DNA of 6,033 nucleotides. Origin: Candidatus Micrarchaeum sp. Its GTDB lineage: Archaea > SpSt-1190 > DYHY01. Below are positions 1 through 6,033 of this stretch, one piece after another; within the stretch, counting starts at the first letter, position 1; each line of letters begins with the position of its first letter. The notes beneath the pieces are model-generated. The model was not told the DNA's origin. It saw only the letters and a program-made list of their open reading frames with translations, and searched no databases. The position numbers were made by a program, and so were the translations under genes. Location of the stretch: positions 1 to 6,033 of the forward strand of contig DYHY01000026.1 of assembly GCA_020723935.1 (NCBI GenBank). Reading direction: 5' to 3'.

Positions 1-386
1 ATGCTTATCCCCCCGCCGATGAACACCGCGCGGCCGCCCGTGCAGTCGGCGGACCTGAACGCGAACCTCCCGAGGGGCCCGAGGACGTCCAGCTTCGTCC
101 CGTCCGCGACGTTCCAGAGCGCCTTCGTGAAGCCGCCCTTGGTGCGGAAAGATATCTCGATCGCCGGCCCACCGTCCGGGGGGCTCGCTATCGTGTAGGA
201 TCGCGCGACCCCGAGGCGCGTCCCCTTCTCGGGGAGGTAGATATTCACGAACTGGCCGGGCTCGAAGAGGAAGGGCTTCCCGTCGCAGGCCTCGAGGACC
301 AGTGTCTTCACCGTCGCGCTCTCGACCCGGCTCTGCGCCACCGCGAACTTCCTGACTGACGGGCGGCTTTGGGGCATCTTCTTCAT
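1..386 (-). CDS. FNR-like flavoprotein oxidoreductase, FAD-binding domain (partial, C-terminus off the left edge)
   Basis: Read from ATG at 386-384, this frame stays open to the window edge (128 codons), so the C-terminal part is missing. It matches the FAD-binding beta-barrel of the ferredoxin-NAD(P) reductase superfamily. Residues 43-54 (FEPGQFVNIYLP) are the usual barrel strand. RSYTIASPP at about 62-70 is the flavin-binding RxY(S/T) motif. GGFTKALW at about 83-90 fits the phosphate-binding GxxS/T loop, and GPLGRF at about 102-107 is typical of the barrel end. The last visible residues, FIGGGIS, are the glycine-rich start of the NAD(P)-binding Rossmann domain. Family role: moving electrons between NAD(P)H and a partner such as ferredoxin, a flavin or another subunit. 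The partner cannot be told here. The third codon positions are GC-rich, as in its neighbours. A TATA-like box lies 26 bases before the ATG. An in-frame ATG at 377-375 is a less likely alternative start. The family call is secure; the subfamily is unknown. Confidence 0.85.
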   Translation of the reverse strand, partial: MKKMPQSRPSVRKFAVAQSRVESATVKTLVLEACDGKPFLFEPGQFVNIYLPEKGTRLGVARSYTIASPPDGGPAIEISFRTKGGFTKALWNVADGTKLDVLGPLGRFAFRSADCTGGRAVFIGGGIS

Positions 387-407
387 CGCGGGGGCGTCCC
401 CTTCTTC

Positions 408-419
408 TTTAAAAAATTT
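408..419 (-). promoter_or_regulatory. Archaeal TATA-like box for the FNR-like gene
   Basis: Read on the minus strand the sequence is AAATTTTTTAAA, an A/T run inside GC-rich DNA. Its core TTTTTTAAA centres near 412, about 26 bases before the ATG at 386. That is the normal TATA-to-start-site distance in archaea, so the transcript would begin at or next to the start codon. There is no good Shine-Dalgarno sequence before the ATG, which agrees with a leaderless message. This is inferred from geometry only. Confidence 0.6.
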
Positions 420-462
420 GCACCGCCGGCTGCGCGGGCCCCGCCGCAAGGCTTACCAAAGG

Positions 463-469
463 TTTTAAT
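463..469 (+). promoter_or_regulatory. Archaeal TATA-like box for the radical SAM gene
   Basis: TTTTAAT centres near 466, about 28 bases before the ATG at 494. It is preceded by the A-rich AAAGG, which could act as a BRE-like element. The predicted transcription start is within about two bases of the ATG. The GGAG directly touching the ATG is too close to serve as a ribosome site. The facing promoter of the FNR-like gene lies about 50 bases away on the other strand, so this is a divergent promoter region. Confidence 0.55.
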
Positions 470-493
470 CGTGGCGAGGGGGCGCTGCTGGAG

Positions 494-1958
494 ATGCGCG
501 GCGGGCGGGAAGGGGTGAGGGGCGCGGGTGTCTTCCTCGTCAGGCCGCATTCCGAAGCTTTCGCGGCCTTCCGGGGAATCGGGGGCGTGCAACCACCCAT
601 GAACCTCTTCGGCCTCGCGGCGTTCCTGAGGAAATGGGGATTCTCCGTCCGCGTCCTCGACTTCGAGATGGACGGCTTCTCCGAGGAGGCGTTCCGGGCG
701 CTCCTCGGCAAGGAGAAGCCCATCCTCGTCGGGGTGAGCCTCTCGAGCCTCAACCTCGTGGAGACGAAGAGGATCTGCATGGTCGCCAAGGCGGCAGGGA
801 TCCTGGCCGTCGTCGGCGGGCCCCATCCCACGGCCTATCCGCGGGACTGTCTGAAGTTCACGGGCGCGTGGGCCGCCGTCGTGGGCGAGGGGGAGGAGAC
901 GTTCCTGGAGCTCGCCAAGCTAGCGCGAAGGGGTGGGAAAGGATGGGGCAAGGTCGGGGGGATCTACTATCCGCAAGCGCGCGGGAAAGGGGTGAGATTC
1001 ACCGGAACGCGGCCGCCCATCGAGGACCTGGACAGCCTGCCCTTCCCGGACAGGGGCGCGGAGGAGTTCAGGAAATACAGTGGGAGCCTGCCGCCCGGGA
1101 TAACGAAGAGGACCGCGTACATGATGGCGAGCAGGGGCTGCCCGTATTCGTGCAGCTTCTGCCAGTCGCCCTCGCTCCTGGGCCGTAGGTGGCGGGCGAG
1201 GAGCGTCGGAAGCTTCCTTTCCGAGATGGAGGAAGTGGCGTCTCTCGGATATGGCCACGCGCTCATCGACGACGACATCTTCGGCCTGGACCCGAAGTGG
1301 CTTTCCGCGTTCTGCAGGGGGATGAAGGAGGCGGGCCTCGCGCGCAAAATGACGTGGACAGCCAACTCGCGCGTGGATCTCGTCGACGAGAAGATCCTGA
1401 GGACTATGAAGGATGCCGGCTGCGAGAAGATATGCCTCGGCGTCGAGAGCGGGAGCCAGAGGATCCTTGACGGGATTGGGAAGTGTGTGAAGGTGTGCCA
1501 GATCGAGCAAGCCTTCCGCGCGGCGAGGCGGGCGGGCATCGCCACGCAGGCGTACGCGATCGTCGGGCACATCGGCGAGACCGCCGGCGACATTCGCAAG
1601 ACTGAGGAGCTGCTGACGAGGATCGGCCCAGACTTCATCCACCTCTCCGTCTTCGCGCCGCTCCCCGGCACGCGCGCCTACGACGAGGCGGTTTCCCTCG
1701 GGCTCTACGAGCCGGCGGACAATTTCGCAAGCCACGGCTATTTCCTGAGGGAGGCGCCCTGTGGGAACGGGGTGTTCAGCGCCGAAGAGCTCGTGAAGAT
1801 CAGGGATTCCATCCAGCGGCGCTTCTACCTGCGGCCCGCCTACGTTTTAAGGCGGCTCGCGTCGATAAGGAGCGTGCAGGACGCTCTCTACGACCTGAAG
1901 GGCCTCGCCGCCCTGCTTTTTCCGGCGCGCGGACCGGGAGGGAGGGGCAGGAGGGTAG
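494..1958 (+). CDS. B12-binding-domain radical SAM protein (C-terminal frame disturbed)
   Basis: Residues about 10-140 form a cobalamin-binding Rossmann-like domain: QPPMNLFGLAAFL (33-45), FSVRVLDFEM (50-59), VGGPHPTAYP (107-116) and VVGEGEETF (129-137). Residues about 205-430 are the radical SAM barrel. Its CX3CX2C motif in SRGCPYSCSFCQSP has Cys216, Cys220 and Cys223 to bind the 4Fe-4S cluster that cleaves S-adenosylmethionine. LGVESGSQRIL (315-325) is also typical. Members carry out methylations, ring formation and C-C bond chemistry; the substrate here is unknown. The start is ATG 494, supported by the TATA-like box; GTG at 515 is an alternative. The frame has no stop near the expected C-terminus (about residue 487). 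It continues to TGA 2384-2386, but the 72 codons after 1955 are Pro/Arg-rich out-of-frame translation of the next gene. I end the gene at TAG 1956-1958, which needs a +1 shift in the G-rich tract at 1936-1955. The uninterrupted ORF is 494-2386, 630 codons. Confidence 0.85.
1936..1955 (+). promoter_or_regulatory. G-rich tract: ribosome binding site of the next gene and suspected frameshift site
   Basis: Four G-runs (1936-1938, 1940-1942, 1944-1947, 1953-1955) separated by 1, 1 and 5 bases fit the G3+N1-7 G-quadruplex pattern. The AGGAGGG at 1949-1955 is a strong Shine-Dalgarno sequence, about four bases before the ATG at 1959. TAG at 1956-1958 abuts that ATG. Removing one G in this tract would bring the radical SAM frame onto that TAG. 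Confidence 0.6.
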
Positions 1959-2204
1959 ATGGCGGGAAGCCTGCTGAGGAGGTTCTCCCTCCCGTCCGCG
2001 CTCGTCCTCCTGGGCATCGGGGCATACCTCGTCATGCGGAGGATAGGGCTCCTCCTCATCCTCATAGGCCTGTGGCTCTTCCTCTACGCGCTCTCCGAGA
2101 GGACCCCATCGAAAGCCGACGATTCCACATACTCGATATTGCGGTCCTTCCGCGAGCACGAGGAGGCGCAATGGAAGCTCTTCATATCTTCTCGGCGTTC
2201 CTGA
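1959..2204 (+). CDS. Small two-helix membrane protein (81 aa), unknown function
   Basis: I do not recognise a family. The 81-residue product has a basic N-terminus (residues 1-9, with an Arg-Arg pair), then a hydrophobic stretch at about 11-25 (LPSALVLLGIGAYLV). A short Arg-Arg turn at 27-28 leads to a second hydrophobic stretch at about 30-45. The polar, charged C-terminal tail runs from about 46 to 81. This suggests a hairpin in the membrane with a soluble tail. Coding evidence is a GC-rich third codon position throughout the first 50 codons, a strong AGGAGG ribosome site four bases upstream, and clean hydrophobic segments. The competing radical SAM frame over the same DNA gives only Pro/Arg-rich sequence. 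It starts one base after the likely radical SAM stop (TAG then ATG) and overlaps the next gene by 34 bases, so the three are probably co-transcribed and translationally coupled. Confidence 0.75.
   Translation: MAGSLLRRFSLPSALVLLGIGAYLVMRRIGLLLILIGLWLFLYALSERTPSKADDSTYSILRSFREHEEAQWKLFISSRRS
2162..2166 (+). promoter_or_regulatory. Ribosome binding site for the 71-aa membrane protein
   Basis: GGAGG lies four bases before the ATG at 2171, inside the coding sequence of the preceding gene. It supports an internal start at 2171, so that the 71-aa protein is made separately and not as the tail of a 630-codon fusion. Confidence 0.55.
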
Positions 2205-2386
2205 TAGTCGCATATCTCATCTACGTCCTGACGGGCGAGCCGGGGGCATCCTTCCTGGGGAGCGTCTTCGTCTTCACCCTCGGGGGCGTCAACAGCTCAG
2301 GGAAGGAGAGACGGTCGGCGGGCGATTACGTCGTCCCCGCCCTCGTCCTCTTCGGGACGTTCTACGCGCTTCTCAGGGGGATCTGA
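2171..2386 (+). CDS. Small two-helix membrane protein (71 aa), unknown function
   Basis: I do not recognise a family. The product has a first hydrophobic segment at residues 5-20 (HIFSAFLIVAYLIYVL), then a Gly/Ser-containing stretch with a further hydrophobic patch (about 28-38). A polar loop at about 41-52 (NSSGKERRSAGD) is followed by a final hydrophobic segment at 54-68 (VVPALVLFGTFYALL). Two or possibly three membrane spans are predicted, with almost no soluble part. The ATG at 2171 has GGAGG four bases upstream and lies inside the 3' end of the 81-aa gene (34-base overlap). By chance it shares the reading frame of the radical SAM gene, so automatic gene calling would likely swallow it as residues 560-630 of that protein. 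The change from Pro/Arg-rich sequence to clean hydrophobic segments exactly at this Met argues for an independent gene. It may form a membrane complex with its neighbour; that is inference. Confidence 0.7.
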   Translation: MEALHIFSAFLIVAYLIYVLTGEPGASFLGSVFVFTLGGVNSSGKERRSAGDYVVPALVLFGTFYALLRGI

Positions 2387-2398
2387 GAGGCGGGCGTC

Positions 2399-3814
2399 TC
2401 AGAAGTAGAGCGCTTCTGATGAGTCGGCGCGCCGGTACGCTTTCCTCAGGAACACCAGGCTCACTGGCAGGAGGAACGCGCAGAATGCGGCGAGGCCCGG
2501 GGCGCTCGAAAGGGAGAGGAAGAACGCCACGAGGGAGACGGGGGCTATCAGGGCGAAGTAGAGGAGGAAGTTCTTGGCGTTGTAGAGCAGGATGTTGGGC
2601 GCGAGGCCTCCCAGGAGAGCGGTGATTGCGAGCGAATACGCGCACGTCCCGGCCAAGGCGAAGAGGGCCGCCGCGACGCTTGCGAGGGGCGAGCCGCGGG
2701 CGATTGCGACCGCGAGGAGGAGGAGGGGGGAGAGGGGCGAGAGGAGGAGGTAGCCGAAGACCTTTCCGCGCATGACGTCTGAGGATTTCAGCGGCAGTGT
2801 CGAGCCGTAGGCAGATGCCATGTCGAACTCGGTGAGCCAGTTGTAGATCGAGGAGGAGATCACGCCGAGGAATATCGAGAATATCAGGAGGAAGTCGGCC
2901 GAGGGGATGAACTTCAGGAAGACGGAGAGTATCGCGGAGGTGAGGCCCAGGGGCAGGAGGAGCGTGAAGAGGACCTTGCCGAAGCCCCCCTCGCTCCTGT
3001 AGAGGTCAAGGAGGTCCTTTGCGACGAGGAAGGAGAGGTTCCTCGCGAAGCCCAGGCCGCGGGCCGCCCCCGCGAGGCGCTCCCGGTGCCTCCTTTCGCG
3101 CGCGGCGTAATCGGCTTCCAGGAACGCGACGGAAAGGGCGTAGGGGACGAGGATGAGGAGGGTGGAGAGGACGAACGTGAAGGGATCTTGCCCGAGGAGC
3201 AGGAGGAAGGGAGGAAGGAGTGTCTCGGCAGGGATGCGCAGGGCGACCGCGGCCGCGACGATCACGCCCGGGGCAAGGACGGCCGCAAATTTCCCGAGCC
3301 TCACGTAGATCGTCGAGAGGAGGAAGACGACGGAGAGGCCGAAGAGGAAGGAGAGGGAGAGGGTCAGGAGCACGAGCGGGACCCAGTGCAGGACTATCGG
3401 GTAGAACGCGAGGCTCGCCGCCGCGAAGCCGAGGACGAAGGGGAATACCCAGAGGGCGAGGTAGTAGACGCAATCCTTGACGACGAAGCTTGTCAGGATC
3501 TCGCGCTCGGAGACCGGGAGGCTACGCGACGAGAACGCGACGAGGCTCGCGTGGCCGAACCTCCTGTTGAGGACCTCGCGGCCCAGGAGCCCGAAGGAGC
3601 CGACGGAGGCGCCGAAGAGGAAGAAGGTCGAATGGACGAGGAGGGCGAGAGTGCGGAGGGGCACGATGAGCGAGAGGACGGGGAGGAAGAAGGAGCCGGC
3701 GAAGGAGAACGCTGCGAGGACGAATGGGAAGAGGAGGAACATAGCGCTCCCGAAGAGCGAGGAGTGTATCCGCCACTCCTCCCTCATCATCGCCCGGAAA
3801 AGCTCAAGCGTCAT
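2399..3814 (-). CDS. ABC-2-type transporter permease, large archaeal form (471 aa)
   Basis: A very hydrophobic protein with about 12 likely membrane segments in two sets: roughly residues 22-80, 115-230, 280-325 and 352-455. A charged cytoplasmic stretch at about 233-275 (ADYAARERRHRERLAG, then VAKDLLDLYR) separates the halves. Such linkers and the SxxLPxS(E) loops (SRSLPVSEREI at 97-106, GSTLPLKSSDV at 337-347) are usual in ABC-2 exporters. At 471 residues it is about twice the single-domain ABC-2 size, and the two halves look like an internal duplication. It would form the membrane channel for the ATPase encoded just upstream. The substrate is unknown; related systems export lipids, drugs or peptides. 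The start ATG 3814-3812 has AGGAGG nine bases upstream and lies 22 bases after the ATPase stop, so the two form an operon. The long acidic frame on the opposite strand is its antisense shadow. Confidence 0.85.
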   Translation of the reverse strand: MTLELFRAMMREEWRIHSSLFGSAMFLLFPFVLAAFSFAGSFFLPVLSLIVPLRTLALLVHSTFFLFGASVGSFGLLGREVLNRRFGHASLVAFSSRSLPVSEREILTSFVVKDCVYYLALWVFPFVLGFAAASLAFYPIVLHWVPLVLLTLSLSFLFGLSVVFLLSTIYVRLGKFAAVLAPGVIVAAAVALRIPAETLLPPFLLLLGQDPFTFVLSTLLILVPYALSVAFLEADYAARERRHRERLAGAARGLGFARNLSFLVAKDLLDLYRSEGGFGKVLFTLLLPLGLTSAILSVFLKFIPSADFLLIFSIFLGVISSSIYNWLTEFDMASAYGSTLPLKSSDVMRGKVFGYLLLSPLSPLLLLAVAIARGSPLASVAAALFALAGTCAYSLAITALLGGLAPNILLYNAKNFLLYFALIAPVSLVAFFLSLSSAPGLAAFCAFLLPVSLVFLRKAYRRADSSEALYF

Positions 3815-3823
3815 TCTTTCCGC

Positions 3824-3829
3824 CCTCCT
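3824..3829 (-). promoter_or_regulatory. Ribosome binding site of the permease gene
   Basis: On the minus strand AGGAGG lies nine bases before the permease ATG at 3814 and within the 22-base gap after the ATPase stop. This contrasts with the ATPase gene, which appears leaderless. It supports the permease being translated from within the operon message. Confidence 0.65.
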
Positions 3830-3836
3830 TCCCCCC

Positions 3837-4565
3837 CTATCTGCCCCGCACGGCCCGCATGAAGAACGCAGAGAGCTTCTCGCGCCTCTTCCTCATGTCC
3901 GCAACCCTTCCCTCGCGGATTATCCGTCCCTTCTCTATTATCGCGACGCGCGTGCACAGCTGCTCGGCTATCTCCAGGGCGTGCGTGCAGAAGAAGATCG
4001 TCCCGCCCCGCGCGACATGGTCCTTCATGTAGGCCTTGATCTTCTCCTGTATTATCGGGTCTAGGTTGATGAGGGGCTCGTCAATGAAGGCGACGGCGGG
4101 CTTGTGGAGGAACGCCTGCGCGAACATGAGCTTCTGGCGCGTGCCCTGGGAGAGGTCCTTACAGAGGACCTTCCTGTCTCCGGAGAACTCGAGGAAGTCG
4201 AACCACGCGGTTATGCTCCCCGACACGTCGCCTAGCTTCCTGATCCCGGCAACGAACTCCAAGTATTCCTCGCACGTCAGGAAGGAGGGTGGATTGGCCT
4301 GGTCCGGGATTATGCCCACAAGGGAGCGCACGCCGACAGGGTCCTTGGCCGGATCCATCCCCAGGACCCTGGACGACCCGTCGCTAGGCCTGATCTGCCC
4401 GGTGAGGAGGCGCACTATTGTCGTCTTCCCGCTGCCGTTGGGGCCGAGCAGGCCGAAGAGCTCGCCGGGTGCTACCGAGAACGAGACGCCGCGCACGGCC
4501 TCGACGGGGCCGTAGCTTTTCATCATATTGGACGCAAGAATCGCCGGGGATTTCGCTGTTGGCAT
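3837..4565 (-). CDS. ABC transporter ATP-binding protein (exporter type)
   Basis: A 242-residue ABC ATPase of normal length. It has Walker A GPNGSGKTT (41-49, Lys47), a Q-loop near Gln89 (IIPDQANPPSFLT), signature LSQGTRQKL (138-146), Walker B AVAFIDEP with catalytic Glu163, D-loop NLDP (167-170) and the switch His195 in CTH. It would hydrolyse ATP on the inner face of the membrane to power the permease encoded 22 bases downstream. Two positions differ from the usual exporter pattern: the signature is LSQGT instead of LSGGQ, and the residue before LDP is Asn where Gly is common. LSxG is kept, so activity is plausible. The start ATG 4565-4563 is chosen because a TATA-like box lies about 25 bases upstream. 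The internal Met14 and Met15 sit within the first beta strand region (SNMMKSYGP), so starting there would cut the fold. The substrate cannot be inferred. Confidence 0.92.
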   Translation of the reverse strand: MPTAKSPAILASNMMKSYGPVEAVRGVSFSVAPGELFGLLGPNGSGKTTIVRLLTGQIRPSDGSSRVLGMDPAKDPVGVRSLVGIIPDQANPPSFLTCEEYLEFVAGIRKLGDVSGSITAWFDFLEFSGDRKVLCKDLSQGTRQKLMFAQAFLHKPAVAFIDEPLINLDPIIQEKIKAYMKDHVARGGTIFFCTHALEIAEQLCTRVAIIEKGRIIREGRVADMRKRREKLSAFFMRAVRGR

Positions 4566-4586
4566 CTCGTCGGGACGCGCCGGGCG

Positions 4587-4594
4587 TATTTATT
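4587..4594 (-). promoter_or_regulatory. Archaeal TATA-like box for the ABC exporter operon
   Basis: On the minus strand AATAAATA centres near 4590, about 25-26 bases before the ATPase ATG at 4565. It lies in the 47-base gap after the lipid kinase stop, so the exporter operon probably has its own start instead of depending on readthrough. No strong Shine-Dalgarno sequence precedes the ATG, consistent with a leaderless transcript. Confidence 0.6.
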
Positions 4595-4612
4595 GGTGCT
4601 CCCGCTGCAGGC

Positions 4613-5908
4613 TCACTTGGAGGGCTTGGAAAGCATCCTAACCGCCCCATTCACCCTTCTGACGGAATATTTGTGTATGCCCGTGAGGACCTCGCCGCCG
4701 ACATGGGCGGTCGTCGGGGTCTCAGAGGACCAGGATATTATGGACTCGAAGTGCTGGTAGCTTCCCCGCGCAGCGGGCGGTATCCCCACCTCCTCTGCGG
4801 GCTCTTCCCCTCTGTAGCCGCCGAGAGTGGAATACATATGGACGCCCTTGTCGCGCGTGTGCCGCCCGGCCTTCGCCTTGAGGAGAGTCAGCGGCCCTTG
4901 GGCCTTGGAGGTGGTCCCGTCTAGGATCATCACCTGGGCGTTGTTGAAGGGGTCCGCGCCCGGGAAGCACTGATTTATCGAGCCGAGGCGCGGGACCTGC
5001 CCTGCGTCTAGGCTGTAGAGGCGCGACTTGCCTCTGCCGTCCCCGGCGATCTCGACGGGCTGCCCGTCTATCTCGAGGTTGACTTCGTATGCCTCCTGGC
5101 CAGGTATCTGCAGTAACGCCGCGAGCGGATAGATTAAGCCCTTGAGGTACCCCTTGAACCTGTGCAGGAATGTGTTGTCCACCCTCGCCGCGATGTTCCC
5201 CATGAAGCCGATCCCTGTGTGGGCGTAGGTGAGCCTCTCCTGCAGATCGCCCTCCTTGTCGCTCGTGCCGACGGCAAGGAGGCTCATGTAGGCTGTCTCC
5301 GACTCGTTCGCGACAAGGCCTTCGGCCAGGTTGCGTATGGCGGCACTGGGTGAGCCGCAGCCTATCGCCTTGGCGCCGTCGTTAGCGGTGCCGGAGGCGT
5401 AGGGGAAGAAATACGTTTTCGCGGCGGAGCAGACTGCCTCCTTTACGGGCGAGGGCTTGCTTGCGGCTATCTTCTCGGCCACCTCATCGATGTCCCGGGC
5501 CGTCGCGCCGTATTGGGCGCTGTCGCCTAGGACGTCGGAATATTGGGAAAGGGCTTTGGAGACGACCGCCTTCTGGCCCTCGACCATCCCCTCGAGGACC
5601 TCCCCGGAGGTTCCGTCGCCGCCCATGGCGACGATCACCCGCTTGGAGAATCCGTCCGTGGGAGTCTCCATTATCGAGGACGCGATGCCCTTCGCGTGGC
5701 CCTTTGATTTAGTCTGTATGGGCACGACCGTCGCCCCGACCGCCGAGAAGGCGTGGACGAAGTTGTTGACGTTGTACTCGGAATAGCTCCCCGCCTTCGG
5801 GTTGTAGATGAGATAGATGCTCGTTCCCGCAAGATTCCGCCCCCCGACGGCCTCCCGGACGAGCCTTTCCGCCTTGGCCTTTCCGCGGGAACTCTTTCTT
5901 CCGAACAT
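4613..5908 (-). CDS. Diacylglycerol-kinase-family lipid kinase (YegS/DAGK/LCB5-like), enlarged form
   Basis: Numbering from ATG 5932 (439 codons), the motifs are YNPKAGS (43-49), GGDGTSGEVLEG (104-115), the nucleotide-binding signature of this kinase family, and PYASGTANDGAKAIG (177-191), matching its P-x-GTxND motif. TGIGFMGNIA (239-248) begins the second, beta-rich domain, which ends with EIDGQPVEIAG and HVGGEVL. Members phosphorylate the hydroxyl of a lipid such as diacylglycerol using ATP; the archaeal substrate here is unknown. About 68 residues separate GGDGT and GTAND, well above the roughly 25 usual, so an extra segment is present (about 116-175). Total length also exceeds the usual 300. 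I place the start at ATG 5908 (Met9, 431 codons). The eight codons before it are A/T-ending, unlike the rest of the gene. A TTTATATA box lies about 32 bases upstream of 5908 but only 8 from 5932, and an AGGT stands six bases before 5908. The next gene starts 47 bases after its stop. Confidence 0.87.
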   Translation of the reverse strand: MFGRKSSRGKAKAERLVREAVGGRNLAGTSIYLIYNPKAGSYSEYNVNNFVHAFSAVGATVVPIQTKSKGHAKGIASSIMETPTDGFSKRVIVAMGGDGTSGEVLEGMVEGQKAVVSKALSQYSDVLGDSAQYGATARDIDEVAEKIAASKPSPVKEAVCSAAKTYFFPYASGTANDGAKAIGCGSPSAAIRNLAEGLVANESETAYMSLLAVGTSDKEGDLQERLTYAHTGIGFMGNIAARVDNTFLHRFKGYLKGLIYPLAALLQIPGQEAYEVNLEIDGQPVEIAGDGRGKSRLYSLDAGQVPRLGSINQCFPGADPFNNAQVMILDGTTSKAQGPLTLLKAKAGRHTRDKGVHMYSTLGGYRGEEPAEEVGIPPAARGSYQHFESIISWSSETPTTAHVGGEVLTGIHKYSVRRVNGAVRMLSKPSK

Positions 5909-5935
5909 TTTAGTACCTATTAATGGTTTCATTAC

Positions 5936-5943
5936 TATATAAA
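5936..5943 (-). promoter_or_regulatory. Canonical archaeal TATA box for the lipid kinase gene
   Basis: On the minus strand this is TTTATATA, the best TATA box in the window. A start site about 26 bases downstream would fall near 5914, giving a leader of about six bases to the ATG at 5908. The ATG at 5932 would lie upstream of the transcription start and so would not be used from this promoter. Confidence 0.65.
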
Positions 5944-5947
5944 TATT

Positions 5948-5963
5948 ATTACTAAATAGTAAT
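5948..5963. promoter_or_regulatory. 16-base palindrome upstream of the lipid kinase TATA box, possible operator
   Basis: ATTACTA-AA-TAGTAAT is a perfect inverted repeat with 7-base arms. A third copy of ATTACTA in direct orientation occurs at 5931-5937, overlapping the edge of the TATA box, 17 bases away start to start. Half-sites on both sides of a TATA box would suit a transcription factor. The A/T-rich composition makes chance symmetry possible. Confidence 0.35.
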
Positions 5964-6033
5964 TAATTAGCCTCGGAAAGCGCCTTCCTGAAGGCAGCGC
6001 ACTGGCCGGCGGGATCCCCGTCGAAGGGCGTGA
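5963..6033 (-). CDS. C-terminal end of an unidentified gene (partial, enters from the right edge)
   Basis: Reading the minus strand from 6031 gives 22 codons ending in Asn and then TAA at 5965-5963. The residues include TPFDGDPAGQCAAFRKALSE. Third codon positions are mostly G or C (ACG, CCC, TTC, GAC, GGG, GCC, GGC, CAG, TGC), like the confirmed genes. The other two minus frames give Arg/Pro/Ser-rich strings. The GC-rich coding segment changes to the A/T-rich promoter exactly at the stop, which also supports it. The gene is upstream of, and in the same orientation as, the lipid kinase. Too little is visible to name a family. Confidence 0.5.
   Translation of the reverse strand, partial: TPFDGDPAGQCAAFRKALSEAN

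Follow-up and report, generated by a model that had tools for sequence, protein, structure and literature searches.

This locus raises the question of where a radical SAM gene ends and what the sequence directly behind it encodes. The window, i.e. the whole stretch of DNA that was analysed, comprised bases 1–6,033 of a 10,128-base contig and contained no Ns or gaps. The contig belongs to a draft genome of 1.14 Mb in 47 contigs that is 91% complete. Frame 1 is stop-free from 494 to 2386, giving an open reading frame (ORF) of 630 aa. The initial annotation had described an 81-aa ORF (ORF1) and a 71-aa ORF (ORF2) that overlap by 34 bases (2171-2204), the second in frame with the 630-residue ORF, and these coordinates proved to be exact. 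It had also predicted that naive gene calling would merge ORF2 into the radical SAM protein and lose ORF1, which the open frame bears out. In the next frame, a TAG at 1956-1958 directly abuts the ATG of ORF1 at 1959. An archaeal SSU rRNA model scored 1,422 bits in the window; since the same model also matched bacterial controls, this score alone does not settle the domain.

Features of the radical SAM locus, in window coordinates
Feature	Position	Strand	Evidence
Class B (B12-binding) radical SAM enzyme gene, coding part, ~487 codons	494..1955	+	Pfam, codon bias, CxxxCxxC
Probable true 3' end of the enzyme gene: G-rich stretch with inferred one-base displacement, then TAG 1956-1958	1935..1958	+	Stops per frame, ends of relatives, inference
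ORF1, 81-aa small hydrophobic protein: one hydrophobic stretch, polar C-terminal helix; GGAGG at -18 and -9	1959..2204	+	
Link in the frame of the 630-aa ORF (its residues ~489-559): a shadow of ORF1 that scores unlike coding sequence	1958..2170	+	Codon score
ORF2, 71-aa small membrane protein, three predicted helices; same frame as the radical SAM ORF	2171..2386	+	

The enzyme is an ordinary member of the class B (B12-binding) radical SAM superfamily. A B12-binding domain (PF02310, residues 29-140, 4.9e-18, 65.5 bits against a Pfam cut-off of 32.1) was followed by a radical SAM domain (PF04055, residues 213-374, 1.8e-15, 57.9 bits against a Pfam cut-off of 29.5), and the CxxxCxxC motif was present as CPYSCSFC at residue 216. 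The nearest relative found was a paralogue in the same genome with 37-38% identity. Residues 1-479 matched no close relative among the GTDB genome contigs, and in the one further genome that represents the family only a marginal radical SAM match was found. Approximately 25 radical SAM relatives, from this genome and others of the same domain, all ended 9-91 residues past the shared region. Projected onto this locus, their ends place the end of the enzyme at about residue 480-490, which is the site of the TAG at 1956-1958, one frame over.

To which frames the coding sequence belongs was assessed with a codon model for which 96 long ORFs of this genome served as the training set. The coding-frame track kept to the radical SAM frame as far as ~1955, followed the ORF1 frame from ~1959 and returned to the radical SAM frame at ~2171-2190. 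The coding part of the radical SAM gene scored +0.43 bits/codon, ORF1 +0.44 (+0.56 outside the overlap) and ORF2 +0.59. The comparison set consisted of 70 same-strand shadow ORFs of 60-120 aa beginning with ATG, taken from 767 kb of the genome's 1,139 kb, which was the portion sampled. Three of these 70 reached the score of ORF1, ORF1 itself included, and none reached that of ORF2. The codon usage of the genome thus agrees with the earlier view that both small frames are coding-like, and ORF1 and ORF2 are probably genuine reading frames, codon usage being the one line of evidence for their translation. It is very unlikely that they are instead hydrophobic frames thrown up by chance at high GC, or a longer gene's decayed tail. 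Although homologues of ORF1 and ORF2 were found nowhere among the sources searched, both frames show the codon usage of real genes, which is nearly absent among shadow ORFs, and a convergent gene, presumably for an ABC-transporter permease, terminates 12 bases past the ORF2 stop, leaving no spacer.

The 71-codon link that joins the enzyme to ORF2 scored -0.40 bits/codon, 4.7 sd below true coding windows (mean +0.60, sd 0.21). This value falls within the range of its shadow frame (mean -0.65, sd 0.20), in which 9% of windows score as high. As the link scores as non-coding, the 630-aa product has no evolved domain at residues ~488-560. The 630-residue ORF owes its existence to the scarcity of stops in the shadow frame of coding sequence in this genome of 63% GC; 60% of the 71-codon windows of this shadow frame were stop-free, which, once the stop of the enzyme is out of frame, is enough to account for the merger with ORF2. 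As assembled, no stop occurs before 2386, and therefore the ribosome too, and not just a gene caller, would read into the ORF2 frame. If the sequence were right, the product would be a radical SAM protein of 630 residues held at the membrane by a C-terminal anchor, ORF1 would be overprinted on the linker and ORF2 would also be made from an internal start. The frame is indeed open in an ungapped assembly, but the codon score of the link is that of a shadow frame, none of the ~25 radical SAM relatives examined carries a C-terminal tail like that of the 630-aa ORF, and the coding-frame switch sits on the TAG-ATG junction. A genuine fusion of this kind is accordingly considered improbable.

The preferred reading, to which we assign a probability of roughly 0.6, is an operon in which an ordinary class B radical SAM enzyme is followed by lineage-specific coding sequence for small membrane protein, the stop of the enzyme being displaced by one base. 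The enzyme would end at or very near 1956, and its stop, the TAG at 1956-1958, would lie one frame out through a displacement of one base within the preceding G-rich stretch. This displacement would most likely be an assembly or sequencing error and less likely a real mutation. Undoing it would restore the usual stop-then-start order, with ORF1 beginning straight after the stop and ORF2 within the last part of ORF1, an arrangement like that of translationally coupled genes. A one-base displacement best explains the missing stop because frameshifts occur elsewhere in the assembly, the relatives end at this point and the TAG abuts the ATG. An indel within the last ~20 codons is improbable beforehand at the rate implied for the genome; the alternatives are rarer still.

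Frame-changing same-strand junctions without an upstream stop within 100 nt numbered 34 of 341 in the 767 kb, several of them bordering N runs. Three such junctions split one Pfam family over two frames (HAD_2, Aminotran_3 and Aminotran_1_2), the two sides matching consecutive parts of the family. These frameshifted draft-genome genes of the same assembly (HAD, aminotransferase III and aminotransferase I/II) resemble the radical SAM locus in that the coding frame shifts while the upstream frame stays open. They differ in that the switch at this locus coincides with a stop and a start codon, and it therefore marks a gene border and not a break inside a domain.

Broken genes were also seen in other forms. 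A P-type ATPase gene carried in-frame TAGs as well as a change of frame (stretch L079, - strand, ~9,550-11,670, interrupted at VAR*SAD). A methyltransferase-like gene (stretch L055, - strand, 6,826, V*P) and a DoxX-like gene (stretch L043, +, 6,452, GA*EVL) each contained an in-frame TAG. Since TAG otherwise serves as a normal stop in this genome, these interrupted genes look like errors or pseudogenes. A reassigned TAG, read as pyrrolysine or otherwise, was considered and dismissed, since 261 of 635 strong genes end in TAG and no PylS was found above cut-off.

The ribosome sites gave a divided result. The initial annotation had credited each small ORF with its own GGAGG, and the motif was present at -9 before both ATGs; ORF1 has a second copy at -18, while for ORF2 the copy at -9 is the only one. 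Across 279 well-placed starts of this genome, the enrichment of GGAG spanned about -22 to -14 and was highest near -18; the motif is in register with GGTG at -15 and GTGA at -14. The claim is therefore fair for ORF1, which has a copy at the favoured position, and weak for ORF2, the spacing of which is unfavoured by the genome and counts against the preferred reading. The Shine-Dalgarno-like GGAG peak at ~-18 lies farther from the ATG than the usual spacing.

The unfavoured position of the ORF2 GGAGG also fits a different arrangement, in which ORF1 and ORF2 are halves of a single gene for a ~140-residue, roughly four-helix membrane protein, cut by a second frameshift at ~2180-2195 in the overlap. 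A split gene is a possibility to be taken into account because the top-scoring point for the ORF1 to ORF2 frame switch, 2183-2192, lies within the overlap, and because small hydrophobic genes in tandem were found at just one other place in the genome, where the pair proved to be the one DoxX-like gene cut by an in-frame TAG. The polar tail of ORF1 and the N-terminus of ORF2 may in addition share a side of the membrane. Nevertheless, a split gene requires two independent indels inside 230 bases, and genes that overlap cleanly, with an ATG and a GGAGG, are a common form too. Overlaps of 20-60 nt were found in 13 of 359 neighbouring gene pairs, some of which may be frameshifts themselves; as such overlaps are not rare here, two coupled genes are acceptable. 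The joined ORF1 and ORF2 gave weak Pfam matches that varied with the joining point, either to TctB (PF07331, 20.1 bits against a cut-off of 29.1) or to MAPEG (PF01124, 18.3 bits against a cut-off of 23.4), both below cut-off, and a TctB search of the whole genome did not report this site. Taken together, a single split gene is regarded as a tentative and rather unlikely explanation.

Under the preferred reading of two separate genes, both products would be small integral membrane proteins. Hydrophobic hairpins had been proposed for each, and hydrophobicity was indeed found in both. The hairpins were less apparent, as ORF1 has a single hydrophobic stretch at about residues 11-46 and ORF2 was modelled with three helices. 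The ORF1 model consisted of one long hydrophobic helix and a polar helix (mean pLDDT 83) and that of ORF2 was of modest confidence (mean pLDDT 70); both are single-sequence predictions and carry little weight.

The initial annotation further suggested that the radical SAM gene and the two small membrane proteins could form a conserved unit, and this did not hold up in the genomes searched. Searches of up to 394 genomes from the same domain brought up no credible relative of ORF1, ORF2 or their joined form. The same was true of ORF1 and ORF2 in viral contigs and in the contigs of 84,980 GTDB species, a search that detects close relatives only, and in Pfam, NCBIfam, PHROGs and PDB sequences. Weak matches (E 1e-3 to 1e-2) were discarded, being short and in several cases located in stop-containing frames or inside unrelated long ORFs; at the ten such loci that were checked, no radical SAM sequence was present within flanks of ~1.5 kb. 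Downstream of the ~25 radical SAM relatives, varied genes were found and no pair resembling ORF1 and ORF2. Homologues of either peptide were lacking in the related genomes, an outcome that the initial annotation had named as refuting its proposal. The phylum was represented by 10 genomes only, and with a sample of this size a narrow lineage-specific unit is possible. A literature search found nothing specific.

The neighbouring genes were also inspected. On the - strand at 2399-3814, a 471-aa hydrophobic protein adjoins an ABC ATPase and is presumably its permease; it matched no Pfam family and NCBIfam at chance level only. When a syntenic neighbour was sought in the phylum via this ABC transporter, essentially only matches to the ATPase part were obtained outside the locus itself, mostly 25-39% identical. 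A DAGK_cat lipid-kinase-like protein (PF00781, 2.8e-13) is encoded nearby at 4613-5932 on the - strand, opposite to the radical SAM gene. Together with the radical SAM gene, this neighbour could hint at lipid chemistry. The suggestion that ORF1 and ORF2 supply a lipid substrate or anchor the enzyme found no support beyond adjacency.

The locus carries a caution for high-GC draft genomes: where the stop of an enzyme gene is lost, an unrelated membrane protein encoded downstream can become joined to the enzyme and a second one be hidden, so that fusions are annotated falsely. Should the small proteins be real and serve the enzyme, they would be candidate small membrane partners of a cobalamin-dependent radical SAM enzyme. 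As the most likely mode of action, a soluble enzyme would be co-translated with small integral membrane proteins, and these might act alone or dock it to the membrane.

Among known systems, the best NCBIfam profiles for the enzyme were HpnJ (TIGR03471; hopanoid) and BchE (TIGR02026). It shares with them the order of a B12-binding domain followed by a radical SAM domain, the CxxxCxxC motif and a conserved region of ~460 residues. The scores were 144.7 bits against an equivalog cut-off of 577.6 for HpnJ and 138.3 bits against 481.4 for BchE, and because these lie far under the curated cut-offs, the enzyme was not assigned as an equivalog of either. The small proteins are comparable to lineage-restricted (orphan) small membrane proteins, having fewer than 100 residues, hydrophobic helices and a gene adjoining a larger one; a hydrophobic stretch of this kind was present in 45 of the 168 short genes predicted in the sampled part of the genome. 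ORF1 and ORF2 differ from such orphans in being arranged in tandem and overlapping.
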